Of a stretch of DNA of 52,500 nt, positions 6,313 through 49,554 are shown piece after piece. This stretch comes from Neocallimastix lanati (nom. inval.). Lineage: Eukaryota; Neocallimastigomycota; Neocallimastigomycetes; Neocallimastigales; Neocallimastigaceae. How positions within the stretch are numbered: position 1 is the first letter of the stretch; every line of letters starts with the position of its first letter. A program made the translations under genes and the position numbers. The notes under the pieces were generated by a model. It was given only the letters and a program-made list of their open reading frames with translations. It was not told the origin of the DNA and searched no databases. The stretch spans positions 252,501-305,000 of the forward strand of contig JACVTC010000132.1 of NCBI GenBank assembly GCA_016946835.1, in the 5' to 3' direction.

Positions 6313-8724
6313 TTAAAAGAAGATATTTTGTTTTAATTTATATAGATAACGATCCAATAACATTTCAAAATCTCTTAATACAAAGGTACAGATGACACGA
6401 CCAAAGAAATAGGAAATACGTCCTAATTGATTATGAATATGAGCATATTGTAATTCATTAGGATTGGCTTTACCTTTTGCTTCGATATAGTTAATCCATT
6501 CTACAAAGAATTGGGCTTGATTGAATAAGGTGATAAGAATATCTATATATCCTGAAACATCACCTACTTTTTCTCCCTTCTTATTAGTAAATTTATCCAT
6601 ACTACGTGAGAGACGACTCTTCGAATGGGCTAATTTGGAAGAGCAGGTGACATTAGAATTTATAGAAATTGAAGAGATACTATAGGCTCCTGGACCCTTC
6701 ACCCCAAAAACTTCTTCCTCAATAATATTATCTTGAATTCTTCCATTGGTAATGTCTGTGATACTTCTCGTCGATTTAATGAGATCATCATTAGTCATAC
6801 CCATACCATAGCCATTATTAGATTTTATACCGATGGCACTACCAAATTCATTAGTACGACTGAGGACATGATCCTCTCCATGGAAATGAGAACCTGTTGC
6901 AGAAAAGAGTGGATCATTACCATTTTCTCTATTTCGAGTAGCATCTTCTTCATATGGAATTTCTCTCATCAAATTTAACTCATATCCATACTTCCAAAGA
7001 AGAGACATGTTAATCTTTTTATCTAAACTCACCACTGCTCCTAATTCAATAATTTCATCGATAAATTTTAATTTTTTGGAAAGCATATTTTGAATGGCTT
7101 CCATCTCATTTTCTAATCCACGAAGAACTTCATATACCTCACTACAATTTTCAACTTTGGTATTTCTAATTTTTTGAAGATGTTGAACAAGATTAATACA
7201 GGCTTGATATTTTGTGTCAATGGCTACATACTTAACTCCACGTTGATACCAAAGTTGTCTTGGAACATATAATCTTGGAGTTAGATAACCACCTTCATAC
7301 ATACTACGTGACAATAATCTCATTAACCAGAAAGGTCTCATGATCATTTTCGATGGTAACATTTCTGGCTTAGGAACATTATGTGGCTTTTCCATTAAGA
7401 GATATTCAATGGAGTATGGTAATGAATTGTTTGAAAGTAAAATATTAGGCATATCCTTATTTCCTTGTGATTCCGCAGCAAAAGATAGATAGGCAGTGGT
7501 AGGAGTAGTAGGAGTTGGTTGGGAGATAAGTTTTGAGGAGAAAGGAACAACATAAGGATTATTTTTGTTCCTTGATATGGAAGGATCTCTTTTAGGAATT
7601 TGTACTTGAAGTGGTTTTGGAGCTTTTTGTTGAAGAGATGGGGTACCCTCCATGCTATTATTGTCATTCATGATGTAGGGTGGTTTCTCTGAATTTATAG
7701 GATTAGGGGGTATAGGTGGTACTAAAGGTATGATCTTAGCTGCTGGTGAAGTTATTCCAACAGGATTACTTGCATTTATATTGGGAGTACTATTACTGTT
7801 ATTAATTGATTTACTCAAGCTAATATTTCTTGTCATATTTGGATTAATTCCCATGTTATTATTAATTGGTGGAGATGTTGATTCGATGGGTAAATCATCC
7901 ATTTCATTATTCATTTTCTGAATGAAAATATTATTACTTGCAATAGGTTCAATACCATTTTTATTTTCTGGATTGGTATTTAGTTTGCTGAGGTCAGGAT
8001 TTGAAAGATCAAGATTATTAAATATATTGTTATTTGGATTAGATACTAAGCCAGCAGTCACATTACTTTCTTCATCCATGAAAAAACCAAATTTATTTTT
8101 TACTACAGGTACATTAAAATTAGTACTTTTAGTATAACTTGGAGGTTTAATATCTCCATAAATTGGATCCTCATATAACATTTCTGACATATCATTCATA
8201 TTTTGGGTTCTTTTCTGATCATCTAAAGCTTGCTTATTTTGCATACTATAAAAATCTAAATTTTCAAATAAATCTAAGTTATTTTGATATTCCTGAATTT
8301 TTTTCATACGCTGCAACTCAATATCACTCATACCATATTCCTGTTGTATAGCTTGTTGTCTTAAATTGACATTATAAATTTTTTGTGGGTTATCAATTTC
8401 AATATTTTTTAAATTACTAGTATAATTTTTATCTGTATTCACCTTTAAGAAATTTAATCTGTCATAGTAAGCACTATGAATATTTTGTAAAAGAATGAAA
8501 TCAGTTTCAGATATGACATTCTCATTATGATTATTTATTCTTTCATTTTCAACTGTTTCTAAAATTTGCTTAATTTCATTTATAGCTGTTTCATAAAGAA
8601 GTATGGCTTCCTCGTAACAATGAAAATTATCTGCTTTTACTGCATCCTTTGCAAGAGATTGTGCCTCAACAATTTGTTTTTTTATGCTTCTTTTTGTTAC
8701 TGGTACATTATCTTGAAAATTCAT
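6313..8724 (-). CDS. MIT-domain protein, fungal type, 803 residues
   Basis: A single uninterrupted frame with ATG at 8724. The N-terminus (about residues 10-75) has the features of a MIT (microtubule interacting and transport) three-helix domain: KKQIVEAQSLAKDAVKADNF followed by YEEAILLYETAINEIKQIL, the usual helix A/B pattern. The middle (about 150-430) is Asn/Ser/Pro-rich and probably disordered. A conserved-looking C-terminal region starts near residue 445 (KPEMLPSKMIMRPFWLMRLL, then EGGYLTPRLYVPRQLWYQRG) and runs to the end, broken by a Ser/Asn-rich insert at about 610-700. MIT proteins bind ESCRT-III tails or act in endosomal traffic. The exact partner here is not known. The start is chosen because it precedes the MIT domain directly. 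The family call is fairly sure, the function inferred. Confidence 0.85.
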   Translation of the reverse strand: MNFQDNVPVTKRSIKKQIVEAQSLAKDAVKADNFHCYEEAILLYETAINEIKQILETVENERINNHNENVISETDFILLQNIHSAYYDRLNFLKVNTDKNYTSNLKNIEIDNPQKIYNVNLRQQAIQQEYGMSDIELQRMKKIQEYQNNLDLFENLDFYSMQNKQALDDQKRTQNMNDMSEMLYEDPIYGDIKPPSYTKSTNFNVPVVKNKFGFFMDEESNVTAGLVSNPNNNIFNNLDLSNPDLSKLNTNPENKNGIEPIASNNIFIQKMNNEMDDLPIESTSPPINNNMGINPNMTRNISLSKSINNSNSTPNINASNPVGITSPAAKIIPLVPPIPPNPINSEKPPYIMNDNNSMEGTPSLQQKAPKPLQVQIPKRDPSISRNKNNPYVVPFSSKLISQPTPTTPTTAYLSFAAESQGNKDMPNILLSNNSLPYSIEYLLMEKPHNVPKPEMLPSKMIMRPFWLMRLLSRSMYEGGYLTPRLYVPRQLWYQRGVKYVAIDTKYQACINLVQHLQKIRNTKVENCSEVYEVLRGLENEMEAIQNMLSKKLKFIDEIIELGAVVSLDKKINMSLLWKYGYELNLMREIPYEEDATRNRENGNDPLFSATGSHFHGEDHVLSRTNEFGSAIGIKSNNGYGMGMTNDDLIKSTRSITDITNGRIQDNIIEEEVFGVKGPGAYSISSISINSNVTCSSKLAHSKSRLSRSMDKFTNKKGEKVGDVSGYIDILITLFNQAQFFVEWINYIEAKGKANPNELQYAHIHNQLGRISYFFGRVICTFVLRDFEMLLDRYLYKLKQNIFF

Positions 8725-22754: not shown

Positions 22755-23474
22755 TTAAATAAATCTTCTAATTTTGCATGGAGTTTGGTAGTTGGCATTG
22801 CTTTCTTTAATACCATCCTTGGAATTGGCGGCATGAACAATTCTGTTGTTACCTTCATAAATAGCAACATGATTAACACTTCCATTTGAGCAATAGAAAA
22901 TTAAATCAGCTGGTTTTGCGTTGGATAAGCCACTAACAGATTTTCCTTTAGTAGCTTGATCAGAAGACTGTCTTGGTAAAGTAATACCAAACTTTGCAAA
23001 AATTAACTTTGTAAAACCGGAACAATCACAACCTTTAGTAAGACTGTTACCTCCATAAACATATGGATTTCCAATAAATTGTTTAGCATAACTTACAATT
23101 TTATTTCCATTGATGGAAGTATTAGCTTTTGTGGTAGTTTTGGCTTTGGCTTTAGTAGTAGTAGCATTAGTAACACAACATTTAAAATCAGAACCTCCTG
23201 GACATAAATTTGAATAAGTGGTACCTTTACAAGCAGAAGTAAACATACATGAACCAACTTTACCATTTGGTGCAACACATTTTGATTTATTACAACATTT
23301 AATATTAGATGGATCACTTGGGCATAAACCATTGACATAGGTACCTCCAGCCTTGGTACAACTAGATGTAGAAACACATACACCATTACCAGAGGAACAT
23401 TTGCCATTAACTTTTCCTAAAACTGCTTGAGTAGCAATTAAGGTTAAAAATAATAATTTGATATTTAAATGCAT
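22755..23474 (-). CDS. Secreted NlpC/P60-family cysteine peptidase with two Cys-rich modules
   Basis: A 239-residue frame from an ATG. Residues 1-20 form a signal peptide (hydrophobic core LLFLTLIATQAVLG). Two Cys-rich modules follow (about 26-61 and 66-100), each with spaced Cys and ending GLCP/NLCP...KCC, as in secreted fungal hydrolases. A Thr/Lys/Ala linker (103-120) leads to an NlpC/P60 domain (about 122-239) with catalytic Cys151 in KGCDCSGF, His202 in NHVAIY and His214 in HAAN. The family cleaves the gamma-D-Glu to diamino-acid bond or related links in bacterial peptidoglycan. In a rumen fungus this would suggest attack on bacteria. The catalytic domain is of bacterial type, so ancestral horizontal transfer is likely, but the codon bias matches the host. 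No intron. Truncated copies lie at 33937-34319 and 36131-36200. Confidence 0.9.
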   Translation of the reverse strand: MHLNIKLLFLTLIATQAVLGKVNGKCSSGNGVCVSTSSCTKAGGTYVNGLCPSDPSNIKCCNKSKCVAPNGKVGSCMFTSACKGTTYSNLCPGGSDFKCCVTNATTTKAKAKTTTKANTSINGNKIVSYAKQFIGNPYVYGGNSLTKGCDCSGFTKLIFAKFGITLPRQSSDQATKGKSVSGLSNAKPADLIFYCSNGSVNHVAIYEGNNRIVHAANSKDGIKESNANYQTPCKIRRFI

Positions 23475-25485: not shown

Positions 25486-26445
25486 TTAATCTTTAATTCT
25501 TTCGAGAAGTGTATTTCTAAATTTATCCATTAATGAATTATTCAGATATTTAGTGAACCCATCGGCTAGATTATTCTCTGATTTTATGTATTTTAATCTT
25601 ATTTTATCCTTTTTAACAAGATCTCTTATATGATGATATTTTATATCAATATGTTTTGATTTCGCATTAATAGAATGATTCTGACAATTATATATTGTTG
25701 CCTTATTATCAACATTTATTATTACATAGTTAAGATTGATATTTAGCTCATTTAAAAGGTTCATATACCAAAGACTATGCTTAGCGCATTCGCTTACGCT
25801 ATAGTATTCTGATTCTGACGTTGAAGTTGCAACGCAATGTTGTAGTTTGGAATACCAGCTAGTAGGTGCATCTCCCATCATCATCAGAAAACCGGAGGTT
25901 GATTTTCTTGTATCAATGTCTCCAGCATAATCGGCGTCCACAAATATTTTTAATGAGCTATTCTTTGAGAATTTAATTCCATAATTTTCAGTACCCTTTA
26001 GGTATTTGAAAATCTTTTCTACGTTAATCCAGTCCTCCATAGTAGGATTTTTGCTTTTTCTTGCTGCTTGATTTAATGAAAATAATATGTCTGGTCTTGT
26101 ACAAATTGCAAGGTATAGGAGGTTCCCAATGGCACTTCTATAAAAGGTTTCATTAAATTTTTTGTTTCTTAATTCCTTATTTTCCAATGGCTTCATATTT
26201 CTTACAGGTGCGCAATTAGTCAGTCTAAACTTATTTAGTAATTCTCTTAGATATCCTCTTTGATGTATAATATAACCATCACTTTGTCTTTCAAATTTTA
26301 TCCCAATGACGAAATCTACTTCACCTATATATTTAATGTTATAATTCATTTTAATTTGTTCCTTAATATTTATTATTACATTTTCCTTGCCTATTAAAAG
26401 TATATCATCAACATATACCGTAAGAATACATATTATTTCCTTCAA
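25486..26445 (-). pseudogene. copia pol, C-terminal part: RT catalytic half and RNase H
   Basis: 319-residue open piece. VYVDDILLIG near its start holds the YVDD active site of copia reverse transcriptase. RNase H follows, with VDADYAGD, TSGFLMMMGD, STSESEYYSV and DNKATI, and the tail ENNLADGFTKYL is typical of the copia C-terminus. It has no real initiator and is out of frame with the preceding RT piece, so a frameshift near 26445 separates them. Its stop lies 56 bp before the polypurine tract. Confidence 0.9.
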
Positions 26446-26840
26446 TTATTTTCCTTCACATAGATACAAGGTTCACTATTCAATCTTCTAAATTTCATTT
26501 CTAATAGTGTAGAGTCCAATTTTTCGTTCCATTCCCTGCCGGCTTGCTTTAAACCATATAAGGCTTTGTTTAATTTAAAATAAACTTTGTTGTATAATGG
26601 GTGACCTTGAGGTGGCCTCATATAAATGTCTTCGCTCAAGTCGGCATTTAGGTATGCTGCATTAATGTCTAATTGAAAAATTTTAAAGTTTTTCTGTACT
26701 GCGATTGCTATAATTATTCGCAGTGAATCATGTTTTAAAGTAGGCGAGAAGGTAAGTAAGTAGTCTATACCAAACTTTTGTGTGAATCCCCTTGCGACTA
26801 AACGTGCTTTGCGTACAAGGATATTTCCGTTGAAATCCCG
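26442..26840 (-). pseudogene. copia pol, N-terminal half of reverse transcriptase
   Basis: Continues the frame of the upstream pol piece after an in-frame TAG (26838-26840) that replaces a Lys codon in the conserved WVFKYK motif. Downstream motifs are intact: ARLVARGFTQ, QLDINAAYLNADL, YMRPPQGHP and KALYGLKQAGREWN. It ends at a stop next to the frameshift that leads to the YVDD piece. Confidence 0.88.
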
Positions 26841-29294
26841 CTAATATTTGAAAACCCATTTACAGGAAACTATGTTTACTCCCTTTGGAATGGATTTTAT
26901 TGGTTTGGACACGTTAAGTTGTTCCATATTTTCTAGTTCTTTGTTAACGGCATCCAACCATTCATCCTTATCTGGTAGATTGAATATGTCATAAAAATCT
27001 TTTGGTTCTTTTAAGTTTGTATTATTGTGAGTTTTTGGTGTAGATGATTTGTGATTTGTTAGTTTTGGTCTTTTGTCATTTATTGAATTGTTGTATATTG
27101 CATTTATTACTTCGTTATTTGTATTGATATTATTATTATTATTGTTATTATTATTGTTATTGTTATTGTTATTATTATTATTATTGTTATTGTTATTGTT
27201 ATTATTATTGTTATTGTTATTATTATTGTTATTGTTATTGTTATTGTTATTGTTATTGTTATTGTTATTGTTATTGTTATTGTTATTGTTATTGTTATTG
27301 TTATTGTTATTGTTATTGTTATTGTTATTGTTATTGTTATTGTTATTGTTATTGTTATTGTTATTGTTATTGTTATTGTTATTGTTATTGTTATTGTTAT
27401 TGTTATTGTTATTGTTATTGTTATTGTTATTGTTATTGTTATTGTTATTGTTATTGTTAAAAAAGTTATAATGGTTGAATCTTTTGGAATCATTATTACT
27501 GAGTAAATCGCTCCCCCTGATTTCGGAATTGGGAATAAAATAGTAGAAATCCTTGGGGATGGAAGAAGTGATTTTAGAATTGCCAGGGTTATTTTCAAAA
27601 AATTCAACAGAGCGGGAAAGAATAATTTTATTAGAAGACAAATTAAGAATTTTATAAGCTGAAGAATACGGATGATAACCCAGGAAAATGCCTGGTAAAG
27701 CATTATTGTCAAATTTATTTCGAAAAGATTTTGGAACGTGGAAAAATACGCGACATCCAAAAACCTTAAAGTGAGAATAATCAACTTTTGATTTAAATAA
27801 AATTTCGTAAGGTATTTTGTTATGGATACCAGAGTGTGGTATTCTATTATGTATATAGTTAGCTGTATCAACAGCATATTCCCAGAATTCGTGACTTAAT
27901 TGAGCCTCATTTAATAAGGCTTTAGCAGAATTTATAAGGATACCATTAAAGCGTTCCGCACGACCATTTTGTTGGGGAGAATATGGGATAGTAAATTGTT
28001 GAACAATCCCATTATTGGTACAGAATGTTTTGAATTTTCTATTGTTGAATTCCGTTCCATTATCGGTACGAATAAAAGATATAGATTTATTGAAAATATT
28101 ATTGATTTCTTTATACCAAGAGTGAAATTTATCGAACGTTTCACTTTTGTTGTCGAGAAAGAGGACCCATCCATAACGTGAAAAATCATCTAGAATTGAG
28201 AGGAAATACTTACTTCCATGAATTGATTCATTGACTGGCCCAACAAGGTCCATGTGGATTAATTCGAAAATGGATTTAGATTTATTTATAGATCTTTTAT
28301 ATGGAAAATTTTTTAATTTTGAATTAGAACAAATAGGACATTTTGATTTAATATCAATTTTTAATAATTTGTTTTTGATGGGATTAATATAAAAATGCCC
28401 TAATCTCCTATGCCATAATTTTATTTTATCGGGGATAGATAGTCTTGATAAGTGAAATAGATGTATAGGTGTATTAATTGGTTTATTATAAATTATGAGA
28501 TTGGTTGATAACCAAATAATGAAAGTATTTTGTTCGTTTGAAAATAGATTAATTATTCTGCTTCCATATTGATCATAGATGGTTGCACATAAATGATTTT
28601 TGTTATTAAAGAAAATGACCTTATAATATTGTTGGATGAGTTTAGTAACTGAAATTATATTTTTAGTTATGTGTGGTACAAAATGGACGTTTCTTAATAC
28701 AACTTTATTATTATTTAAATATCCAATGAAATCACCACATTTATGTGATGTGACTATGTTACCATTTGGGAGTACAATATTTTCATTGCAATACTTTAAA
28801 TTTTTGAGGGAACTGATGGAATTAGTGATATGTAATGAAGCTCCAGAATCTAAAATCCAAGACGAAATTTTATTGTTTTGTTCAAGTTTTGTTTTCGAAT
28901 CATTTTGTATTTTAGTTGTGATACAGTTTAATAAAACGTCATTTTCTAAATTGTAATCTTCTGAAAAAATACCAGAATTATGGTTTTTATCATTTGAACT
29001 AACATAGTTTATTTGTTTATTTGTATTTCTAAATGTTTTGTTTTTAAACTGGTTATTTCTGGTATTTTTATAGTGTTGTTTTTTGAATTTAAAGTAATTT
29101 TTATGCTTGTTCTTAAGTTTGTTATTGTGCCAACAGTCCCTTGAAAGGTGACCGAATTTTCCACAGGTATGACATTTTCCGTTATTTGATTTTCTTTTGA
29201 CATTGTGTTTTTTGCTATTAGTACGAAATCTAGTTTTCTGTTCAATATGGAATATCTGTTTATCGGATCCTTCTTGTTTTATTGATTCCTTCAT
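26841..29294 (-). CDS. copia pol, first part: zinc knuckle, protease, integrase, poly-Asn linker, RT start
   Basis: 817 residues. CCHC knuckle CHTCGKFGHLSRDC (41-54); aspartic protease WILDSGASLHITNS with Asp149; GAG-pre-integrase HRRLGHF...CPIC; integrase core with the DDE acidic residues in IHMDLVGP, RTDNGTEF and NGRAERFNG; then a run of about 110 Asn (residues about 612-722, DNA 27129-27458); then the RT opening DEWLDAVNKELENM to VSCKWVFKY, where a TAG stop ends the frame. Its ATG overlaps the gag stop as ATGA. The zinc knuckle belongs to gag in most elements, so the gag/pol boundary is unusually early. Functional only if the stop and the later frameshift were bypassed, which is unlikely. 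Confidence 0.92.
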   Translation of the reverse strand: MKESIKQEGSDKQIFHIEQKTRFRTNSKKHNVKRKSNNGKCHTCGKFGHLSRDCWHNNKLKNKHKNYFKFKKQHYKNTRNNQFKNKTFRNTNKQINYVSSNDKNHNSGIFSEDYNLENDVLLNCITTKIQNDSKTKLEQNNKISSWILDSGASLHITNSISSLKNLKYCNENIVLPNGNIVTSHKCGDFIGYLNNNKVVLRNVHFVPHITKNIISVTKLIQQYYKVIFFNNKNHLCATIYDQYGSRIINLFSNEQNTFIIWLSTNLIIYNKPINTPIHLFHLSRLSIPDKIKLWHRRLGHFYINPIKNKLLKIDIKSKCPICSNSKLKNFPYKRSINKSKSIFELIHMDLVGPVNESIHGSKYFLSILDDFSRYGWVLFLDNKSETFDKFHSWYKEINNIFNKSISFIRTDNGTEFNNRKFKTFCTNNGIVQQFTIPYSPQQNGRAERFNGILINSAKALLNEAQLSHEFWEYAVDTANYIHNRIPHSGIHNKIPYEILFKSKVDYSHFKVFGCRVFFHVPKSFRNKFDNNALPGIFLGYHPYSSAYKILNLSSNKIILSRSVEFFENNPGNSKITSSIPKDFYYFIPNSEIRGSDLLSNNDSKRFNHYNFFNNNNNNNNNNNNNNNNNNNNNNNNNNNNNNNNNNNNNNNNNNNNNNNNNNNNNNNNNNNNNNNNNNNNNNNNNNNNNNNNNNNNNNNNNNNNNNNNNNNNNNNNNNNNNNINTNNEVINAIYNNSINDKRPKLTNHKSSTPKTHNNTNLKEPKDFYDIFNLPDKDEWLDAVNKELENMEQLNVSKPIKSIPKGVNIVSCKWVFKY
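27129..27458 (-). repeat. (AAC/AAT)n tract encoding about 110 Asn in copia pol
   Basis: 330 bp made only of ATT and GTT triplets on the plus strand, mostly ATTGTT hexamers, in the pol frame. Mixed codons mean it is not a pure trinucleotide slip product. Frames such as Leu-only or Thr-Ile alternations over the same DNA are shadows. Confidence 0.92.
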
Positions 29295-29986
29295 ATAATG
29301 TCAGGAATGACATTTTTAATGTAGGAACATAGTTTATTCCAATCATCTTTATATTGGAAAACATTTATAAATCTTAGGTTTTCGGGTAGAGATCTGTTAA
29401 GTATTCCAGCTTTTATATTATCACTAATATCGTGATCTAGGTTTTCAAGCTCTTCTATGGCATTTTGTAGTTTTGCCATAAAGATATTTATGTCTTGGTC
29501 TTCATTGTATTTTAGATTGTTTATTTTATTTTGTATTTCTAATTTTCTTCGTTCTGGACTTCTTGTGAAGGAATGTTCTAAGATTTTCCATGTTTGGAAA
29601 GCTGTTTTCCCTTGTCCCTCGATTATTTTCCTAGTTTCCTCTCCTAAACTATTAATGATGATCCATTTTACCATGACATCATTTTTAATGTCTAGAAGGT
29701 TGGTGTCTTTATCATACACTAAATTATTATCGAACTTATCTTCCATGTAATCACTGAGGTCATCTTTAACATTCCTTTTTCTTATCTTCTTTACCTTTTC
29801 AGAAACAACGTATCCTTCAAGGTTATTTATCATTAATAAGTAAAGGATACTAGTTCTCCAGCTGTTGTAATTTTCTGGAGTGAGATCAATTACTCTATTG
29901 AAATTTTCAGAGTAACTGAAAGTGATACCCTTTGTTTGGGGATCGTTAATCACAATAGGTTGATTAATATTTCCTTGTCTTGTCAT
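29291..29986 (-). CDS. copia Gag polyprotein, 231 residues
   Basis: Complete frame from ATG to TGA. It shows the copia gag fold signatures: LTPENYNSWRTSILYLLMIN near residue 35, then KIIEGQGKTAFQTWKILEHS and FMAKLQNAIEELENLDHDIS, and a C-terminal NRSLPENLRFI. It would form the particle shell. No zinc knuckle is present here; it is encoded at the start of the next frame. The last codon overlaps the ATG of pol in ATGA. Confidence 0.92.
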   Translation of the reverse strand: MTRQGNINQPIVINDPQTKGITFSYSENFNRVIDLTPENYNSWRTSILYLLMINNLEGYVVSEKVKKIRKRNVKDDLSDYMEDKFDNNLVYDKDTNLLDIKNDVMVKWIIINSLGEETRKIIEGQGKTAFQTWKILEHSFTRSPERRKLEIQNKINNLKYNEDQDINIFMAKLQNAIEELENLDHDISDNIKAGILNRSLPENLRFINVFQYKDDWNKLCSYIKNVIPDII

Positions 29987-48595: not shown

Positions 48596-49554
48596 ATGAC
48601 TTTATATCGTTTAGTCGTATTAGGTGATGGTGGTGTTGGTAAAACTGCTCTTACCATCCAGGTAAATTTTTAATTATAATTTTAAATATTTTTTTTTTAA
48701 AAATAATACATCTTACTAATAAACATTTTTAAAATGTATTTTTTGTAGTTGTGTTTAAATCATTTTGTTGGTAAGTTAAAATAGAAAAAGAATAAAATAT
48801 TAATTAATATAAAGAAAAATGGGATAAAGAAATTAATATTAATAATACTTTAAATGAATAAATTTAAATTTAAAAATTCCATATTATTGTTAAAATAGAA
48901 GTAAGTTATTTAACAAAATAATAATTAAATTTTTTTTGAATAAAATAAGTATTAATATGTAAATTTTTAAAATATATTTAAAATAGACTTACGATCCAAC
49001 TATCGAAGACTCTTATAGAAAACAGGTAGTTATAGATGACCAACCGTGCATTTTAGAAGTTTTAGATACTGCGGGACAAGAAGAATATACGGCGTAAGTA
49101 TTTAATATAAAATAAAATATTTATAATGATCAAAAAGTTAATCAATATCTATATATATATATATTTTTTTTTGGAAAATATTAGTTTAAGAGATCAGTGG
49201 ATTAGAGATGGTGAAGGTTTTCTTCTCGTATATAGTATTATTGCAAGGAGTACATTCGAAAGAGTTGAAAAGTTTAGAAATCAAATTTTAAGAGTAAAAG
49301 AAACTGATAGAGTACCAATGGTTTTAGTAGGAAATAAATGTGATATAATCAATAAGAGAGATATTTCAAGAGAAGAAGGTTATTTCTTAGCTAAAAGATT
49401 GCAATGTGAATTTATTGAAACTAGTGCAAAAACTTGTGCTAATGTTGAAAAAGCATTCTATACTGTAGTTAGATGCATTCGTGCTCAAAGAGGTGGCGTT
49501 GTAAGAAAAGAAGGTGGTAGTGGTAGTAATGGAAAAAAATGCAGTATCCTATAA
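48596..49554 (+). CDS. Ras-family small GTPase with CSIL prenylation box, five exons
   Basis: Exons 48596-48661, 48749-48770, 48899-48900, 48987-49093, 49185-49554: 567 nt, 188 residues plus stop. Ras proteins are GTP switches at the plasma membrane that control growth and cAMP or MAPK signalling. Visible motifs: P-loop [13 protein letters not shown] (10-22); effector loop [20 protein letters not shown], with Tyr32 and Thr35 in exact Ras numbering; DTAGQEEY with Gln61; NKCD; ETSAKT; C-terminus KKCSIL, a CaaX box whose Leu favours geranylgeranylation, as in Rap, R-Ras or Rsr1. The polybasic region is short and Gly/Ser-rich. GDGG and LLVYSI are typical of fungal Ras. The frame depends on a 2-nt exon. 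Closest type is fungal Ras; Rsr1/Rap-like is the alternative. Confidence 0.93.
48899..48900 (+). other. Predicted 2-nt microexon (AA) of the Ras gene
   Basis: Context is TTAAAATAG|AA|GTAAGT. Exon 2 ends with G at 48770 and exon 4 starts ACTTAC at 48987. AA completes a Glu codon and gives HFVETYDPT, equal in length to Ras HFVDEYDPT. Direct exon 2 to 4 joining gives [10 protein letters not shown] and a stop. Confidence 0.65.

Follow-up and report, generated by a model that had tools for sequence, protein, structure and literature searches.

A two-nucleotide exon very probably completes codon 30 of a Ras2 gene in the gut fungus Neocallimastix lanati

A probable two-nucleotide exon in a Ras2 gene

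In a 52,500-nucleotide stretch of the Neocallimastix lanati genome (assembly GCA_016946835.1, contig JACVTC010000132.1, positions 252,501–305,000; hereafter, the window), the forward-strand gene at 48596–49554 is very probably a functional fungal Ras2 (RasB-type) gene, whose codon 30 would be completed by a constitutive exon of only two nucleotides (nt), AA. Splicing of exons of 66, 22, 2, 107, and 370 nt (Table 1) yields an intact Ras protein of 188 amino acids (aa) that matches the Pfam Ras domain (2.8e-56). The protein has the GDGGVGKT, T35, DTAGQ, NKCD, ETSAK, and CSIL elements of a Ras2 GTPase, comprising the motifs G1–G5, switch I, and the C-terminal Cys box. Intact members of the fungal Ras2/RasB family, among 148 listed homologs, match it over its full length and share its motifs and CAAX-like end; the structure with a 22-nt and a 2-nt exon is a feature of the gene described here, the other fungi having been compared as proteins. 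That a 2-nt exon is needed to read this gene had been proposed from the DNA letters (the sequence-only reading), and a second gene copy, transcript-like proteins of relatives, spliced alignment, and annotation failures elsewhere favour a real exon.

The case begins with the reading frame. Exon 2 ends with the codons for HFV plus a single G (48770), and exon 4 (from 48987) opens with ACT TAC, encoding T31 and Y32, two bases short of the frame. Between them, AA at 48899–48900 lies between TTAAAATAG and GTAAGT and thus has canonical GT-AG sites on both sides. Its inclusion gives GAA (Glu30) at codon 30, followed by T31 and Y32 in exact Ras numbering. If AA is skipped, ten residues follow V29 before a stop, and the product has 39 aa; if exon 2 alone is left out, it has 36 aa. 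Exons 2 and 3 add up to 24 nt (22 + 2), and a message lacking both stays in frame and encodes 180 aa. Holding the donor of exon 2 and the acceptor of exon 4 constant and allowing one extra exon, we listed the AG...GT pairs of length 3k + 2 in the 216-nt gap, and AA was the sole stop-free choice among 19. The 2-nt exon is therefore required for the frame of the conserved protein. On all of these points (the flanking exon ends, the position and bordering letters of AA, Glu30 and the numbering, the stop about ten residues on, and the 22-nt length of exon 2), the sequence-only reading had been accurate.

Table 1. Exons and introns of the Ras2 gene (window coordinates)
Feature	Position	Strand	Length (nt)	Description
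Exon 1	48596..48661	+	66	M1–Q22; P-loop GDGGVGKT; 65/66 bases same in C52 copy
Intron 1	48662..48748	+	87	GTAAAT...TTGTAG
Exon 2	48749..48770	+	22	Microexon; L23–V29 and base 1 of codon 30; 21/22 bases same in C52 copy
Intron 2	48771..48898	+	128	GTAAGT...AAAATAG; donor above 51/75 genome donors
Exon 3	48899..48900	+	2	Putative microexon AA; bases 2–3 of codon 30 (GAA, Glu30)
Intron 3	48901..48986	+	86	GTAAGT...AAAATAG; donor above 55/75, acceptor above 45/75
Exon 4	48987..49093	+	107	T31 to first two bases of codon 66; switch motif
Intron 4	49094..49184	+	91	GTAAGT...TATTAG
Exon 5	49185..49554	+	370	To stop codon; NKCD, ETSAK, C-terminal CSIL

Spliced alignment and splice-site quality

A spliced aligner was run with five reference proteins and without any hint of a 2-nt exon. 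With four of them (P0001, P0003, P0006, and P0016), it recovered exons of 66, 22, 2, and 107 nt plus the last exon. Masking of the AA acceptor cost 16 score units with P0001 and likewise with P0006, and forced residues 29–30 out of the alignment.

Splice-site profiles were built with the same aligner from 30 small-GTPase loci (the low-scoring L039, L042, L043, and L044 and the duplicate L005 were left out) plus the Ras2 gene itself. Of the resulting 79 introns (91 per cent A+T), two doubtful terminal ones and the two flanking AA were removed, leaving 75, which include related gene pairs and so do not form independent samples. Of the 75 genome donors, 55 score lower than the donor after AA, and of the 75 acceptors, 35 score lower than the one before it. 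The perfect donor and strong acceptor of the sequence-only reading thus become a good donor and an ordinary acceptor. The lowest acceptor score in the set belongs to intron 1, before exon 2 (0/75 genome acceptors are lower). A look at branch-point k-mers in the introns gave weak AT-rich words alone, which were not used.

Sites of this kind are rare. Among the 13,608 bases of the other introns, no AG-NN-GT exceeds the 10th percentile in both profiles. A null set of 100,000 first-order Markov introns, each of 216 nt, gave a Glu-encoding site just as good with a frequency of 0.00007 (7e-5); a site above both 10th percentiles arose with a frequency of 0.0023 if it had to give Glu and 0.0076 for any two bases. 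On both strands of the 52.5-kilobase (kb) window, TAGNNGTAAGT occurs once (0.14 expected; at least one occurrence in 14/100 shuffles). We rejected pure chance as the origin of the AA site on this null model, the rarity of TAGNNGTAAGT, and the second gene copy.

That copy, on contig C52 (L010/L049), is a diverged 5' part of a Ras2 gene, in which exons 1–2 and TAG-AA-GT are readable before a long stretch of N. Both of its exonic differences from the window gene (Table 1) are synonymous. Its introns have diverged (62/82 aligned bases identical in intron 1 and 91/115 in intron 2, with 25 gap columns each), and TAG-AA-GT is retained directly before the gap; two donor bases are visible, and some identity is expected anyway. 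This retention would count as support for the exon, not as proof.

Transcript-like proteins and gene models of relatives

Three homology searches were made, with the best 120 matches of each taken. Two were for Ras2 and together listed 148 homologs, the closest named ones from Piromyces sp. E2 (for Ras1, also from Anaeromyces robustus), as fits an anaerobic gut fungus of the Neocallimastigomycota. We divided the 148 into 27 transcript-like proteins (from JGI or lgn contigs shorter than 3 kb solely), 111 NCBI-named gene models, and 10 exclusions: two paralogs (P0005 and P0017), one chimera (P0004), and seven whose source was mixed, a long contig, or EukProt, none of which is disrupted at this point of the protein.

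The nearest listed JGI proteins, P0001 (923-base-pair [bp] contig, 95 per cent identity, 17 members) and P0003 (903-bp contig), have an unbroken HFVETYDPT. Because the Ras2 gene here has introns around its small exons, these short uninterrupted contigs are most likely complementary DNA (cDNA). Glu30 is present in all 27 transcript-like proteins, preceded by V in 23 and by I in 4. Since such uninterrupted proteins carry the residues, we rejected frameshifting or editing in place of splicing.

Gene models differ from these proteins at precisely this point. Insertions or deletions (indels) relative to the consensus at residues 23–31 affect 53/111 gene models vs. 0/27 transcript-like proteins (P = 3e-7). 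In regions 2–22, 32–66, 67–100, and 101–150, the counts are 11, 7, 1, and 14 of 111 gene models and 0, 0, 0, and 6 of 27 transcript-like proteins. The second search had been seeded with a deletion model (P0105) and is enriched in such models, and the statistics were redone on the first search alone: 27/83 gene models vs. 0/27 have indels at residues 23–31 (P = 2e-4), with 2, 4, 1, and 12 of 83 in the four other regions against the same 0, 0, 0, and 6 of 27. Both P-values ignore shared ancestry and shared annotation pipelines. In an alignment of 14 proteins, V29-E30-T31 is invariant, but its members had been picked among intact ones, and we did not use it as evidence.

By class, 54 of the 111 gene models from both searches are intact at the junction (54 of the 83 from the first search). 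Residues 29–30 are lost in 12 (first search, 10) models that read HF-TYDP and in one (0) that reads HF-IYDP, and intron-like residues follow HFVG in seven (six). A jump from Q22 to T31 is seen in 11 (five) and one from K16 to T31 in seven (none), which together make a skipped class of 18/111. The remaining 19 (eight) are of other kinds: in some, the sole departure is a substitution (P0030) or the difference lies further upstream, while several, P0060, P0097, and P0113 among them, follow no simple scheme.

The HFVG models come from Thamnocephalis, Calcarisporiella, Mucor circinelloides, Powellomyces (two models), Actinomortierella, and Linnemannia. By back-translation, the added residues in six of the seven would fit a donor placed right after base 1 of codon 30: GKC and GKS correspond to GTAAGT, GRC to a GTAGGT-like donor, GES (twice) to GTGAGT, and GMC to GTATGT; the seventh (P0068, GSP) fits poorly. 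The HF-TYDP models include those of Piromyces, Phycomyces, Piptocephalis, Rhizophagus, Podila, Gigaspora, and the basidiomycete Violaceomyces. A gene finder unable to place a 2-nt exon would be expected to lose residues 29–30, to jump from Q22 to T31, or to read through the donor. The public fungal Ras2 records P0002, P0028, P0032, P0037, and P0038, among others, look misannotated at residues 23–31.

Alternative explanations

Several points weigh against the 2-nt exon. The NCBI model P0002 of Piromyces sp. E2 lacks V29-E30, and with this fifth reference the aligner picks a weak donor at 48767. The status of P0001 and P0003 as cDNA is drawn only from their short, uninterrupted contigs, and the C52 copy ends two bases into the donor after AA.

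The P0002 alignment corresponds to an explanation in which exon 2 ends at an in-frame donor (CATTTT/GTTGGT, at 48767) and joins exon 4, giving a Ras protein without V29 and E30. The junction is in frame, and the product has the form of P0002 and 11 other gene models. However, GTTGGT scores below all 75 training donors, with GTAAGT lying four bases further on, and Glu30 is found in 27/27 transcript-like proteins, including the closest, P0001 and P0003 (residue 29 being V or I, as above). We regard this explanation as highly unlikely. That models reading FTYDPT represent real short forms was likewise rejected as the main reading, since 0/27 transcript-like proteins have that form. It is scarcely credible that a single non-canonical intron at 48771–48984 ends in AT and that the following AG joins exon 4 to make Glu30 a GAG codon. 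Such an intron would give the right protein without a microexon, but one ending in AT straight before AG would be exceptional. In addition, GAA is used for every one of the remaining 14 Glu codons (15/15 when codon 30 is read as GAA, with no GAG), and coincidence would have to account for the AG-AA-GTAAGT site as well as for what C52 keeps of it.

A pseudogene, or a loss of two bases in the assembly, could be suspected on the ground that the second copy lies partly in a gap. The 188-aa frame with its GTPase motifs is intact, however, and in C52 exon 2 ends identically and is followed by an identical donor, with only synonymous differences in exons 1–2; furthermore, the Piromyces model, in lacking the same residues, would fit the same gene structure in another genome. 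We judge this explanation very improbable. An alternative that may coexist with a constitutive 2-nt exon is the in-frame skipping of exons 2 and 3, which would produce an uninterrupted Ras protein of 180 aa without L23–E30. The Q22–T31 form is known from 11/111 gene models (5/83 in the first search), but from 0/27 transcript-like proteins; those models look like annotation errors, and the form would lose eight residues beside switch I. Such skipping therefore seems to us unlikely, and inclusion of AA between exons 2 and 4 is the reading that we prefer.

Possible age of the exon

The 2-nt exon may be ancient. We consider the arguments evenly balanced on whether much of the fungal kingdom inherited it from a common ancestor and kept it for hundreds of millions of years in the Ras effector loop. 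In that case, annotation would have overlooked it in many genomes, leaving a sizeable fraction of the deposited fungal Ras2 proteins wrong at residues 23–31; the 22-nt and 2-nt pair may then form an in-frame, skippable unit of 24 nt. The groups concerned would be the gut fungi, chytrids, Zoopagomycota, Mucoromycota, Mortierellomycota, and Glomeromycota. A universal split is not supported. Apart from the 54/111 models that are intact, the sequence HFVE-VN in those of Lichtheimia ornata (P0082) and Mucor velutinosus (P0125) is compatible with an undivided 24-nt exon whose donor follows codon 30, and so is a jump over residues 23–30 with an undivided exon of this length.

Peptide patterns searched against genomic and viral contig collections gave pattern matches and no relatives, the patterns being a poor choice in that they spanned split exons; a switch-I codon pattern hit four and two stretches in the contig collections, none of them Ras. 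The pan-fungal reading hence draws on proteins alone. Sharing of the exon among early fungi, which the annotation errors at this junction suggest, would make it an old, conserved exon smaller than a codon, and the deposited Ras2 proteins of many fungi would need correction beside the switch I loop. Cases like the putative exon 3 of this gene will escape any gene finder unable to place exons only a few nucleotides long.

Proposed recognition of the two-nucleotide exon

Exon definition is not plausible for an exon of this size, as the sequence-only reading had argued. Guo and Liu make the same argument for a 1-nt exon and propose intron definition with stepwise removal (PMC4674806). Because a 2-nt exon has no room for U1 at the donor together with the 3' splice-site factors at the AG, introns 2 and 3 of the Ras2 gene would most likely each be recognized by intron definition and be removed in turn. 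Their lengths of 128 and 86 nt, compared with a median of 130 nt (77 introns), are those of ordinary introns. Either order of removal could work: AA is preceded by G in the pre-messenger RNA (TAG) and again once it has been joined to exon 2 (TTG), and U1 would thus see GAA/GTAAGT before and after removal of intron 2. An exon of 2 nt in a core signalling gene, here in a genome with AT-rich introns, puts to the test how the spliceosome locates exons that cannot accommodate both splice-site complexes.

Adjoining acceptors and donors are also found at the ratchet points of recursive splicing, which lie in long introns and leave no nucleotide in the messenger RNA. At the Ras2 site, an AG followed directly by GT with nothing retained is not what we found, as two bases lie between them and are needed for Glu30. 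At ratchet points, acceptor and donor are used in succession, as would be the case here (PMC8605326, PMC6110457). The introns of the Ras2 gene are short, and two coding bases would stay.

Comparison with known microexons

Exons smaller than a codon are of a known kind. The sequence-only reading had counted exons of 1–2 nt among the smallest reported; the present exon is not the smallest, as 1-nt exons have been published in plants and in Fusarium. The plant examples are in APC11 and VPS55 (PMC4674806; PMC8831610). The Arabidopsis APC11 exon is constitutive, has canonical flanking introns, is essential for the frame, was missed by annotation, and is proposed to depend on sequential intron removal (PMC4674806), and the VPS55 exon has GTRAGT donors, like the GTAAGT here (PMC8831610). 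The plant exons were proven by cDNA and, for APC11, also by mutated reporters, whereas the present one is fungal, comprises two nucleotides, and is deduced from sequence.

Another likeness is the 1-nt exon of Fusarium CYP621A (PMC12940212), where a tiny exon in a fungal gene was recognized from a frame gap in a motif conserved across orthologs. That gene encodes a P450, and its exon, of one nucleotide (AG-G-GT), is supported by RNA reads, in contrast to the sequence-derived 2-nt exon of a gut-fungus Ras GTPase. A regulatory microexon is reported from Trichoderma (PMC11121469). Full-text searches of the openly licensed literature, which are weak evidence of absence, turned up no description of a 2-nt exon, whether in Ras or in any other gene, and no paper treating Neocallimastigomycota and microexons together.

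Other tiny exons and neighboring sequences

Further tiny exons appear elsewhere in the N. lanati genome, which speaks in favour of the 2-nt exon. A pair of Ras1-like genes has a conserved 5-nt exon, AACAA (AAAAG/AACAA/GTAGGT), which contributes Glu-Gln to EEYSAMREQYMR (L014 1723–1727; L013 1737–1741, reverse complement). Masking of its acceptor cost 68 score units in L014 and only 9 in L013, because there another 5-nt exon, with one residue changed, replaces AACAA. The nine nearest listed Ras1 entries (P0149–P0157), which include Piromyces and Anaeromyces models, are intact at this exon; annotation thus coped with Ras1, while the Piromyces Ras2 model did not. A Rab6-like pair, with seven introns in the aligned part, has an 8-nt exon (CATATCAA / CTTATCAA; L037 577–584; L036 1009–1016, reverse complement), and masking of its acceptor cost 33 (L036) and 60 (L037) score units. 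In a pair of PP1-like phosphatase genes (L079/L085 on C599 and L080 on C85), a 5-nt exon, GAAAG, lies between small exons, and C85 has a possible adjoining 4-nt exon. The aligner also placed exons of 9 and 13 nt in terminal or nearly terminal positions of some phosphatase and Ubc matches (L059, L062, L086, and L087); these look like artifacts and were not counted.

The genome (199 megabases in 762 contigs) is AT-rich, and the window (C38:252501–305000) has a guanine-plus-cytosine content of 16.8 per cent overall and 9–29 per cent per 2.5 kb. Conserved genes occur as diverged pairs on separate contigs (C62/C446, C101/C16, C511/C190, C738/C49, and C290/C334), which suggests large-scale duplication or separated haplotypes. 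On the reverse strand of the window are pieces of a Copia-type long terminal repeat retrotransposon with gag, integrase, and reverse transcriptase domains (25486–29986), a gene for an NlpC/P60 domain protein (22755–23474; E = 3.4e-22) of possibly bacterial origin, and an 803-aa open frame (6313–8724) with an MIT domain slightly below the curated cut-off (28.5 vs. 30 bits).
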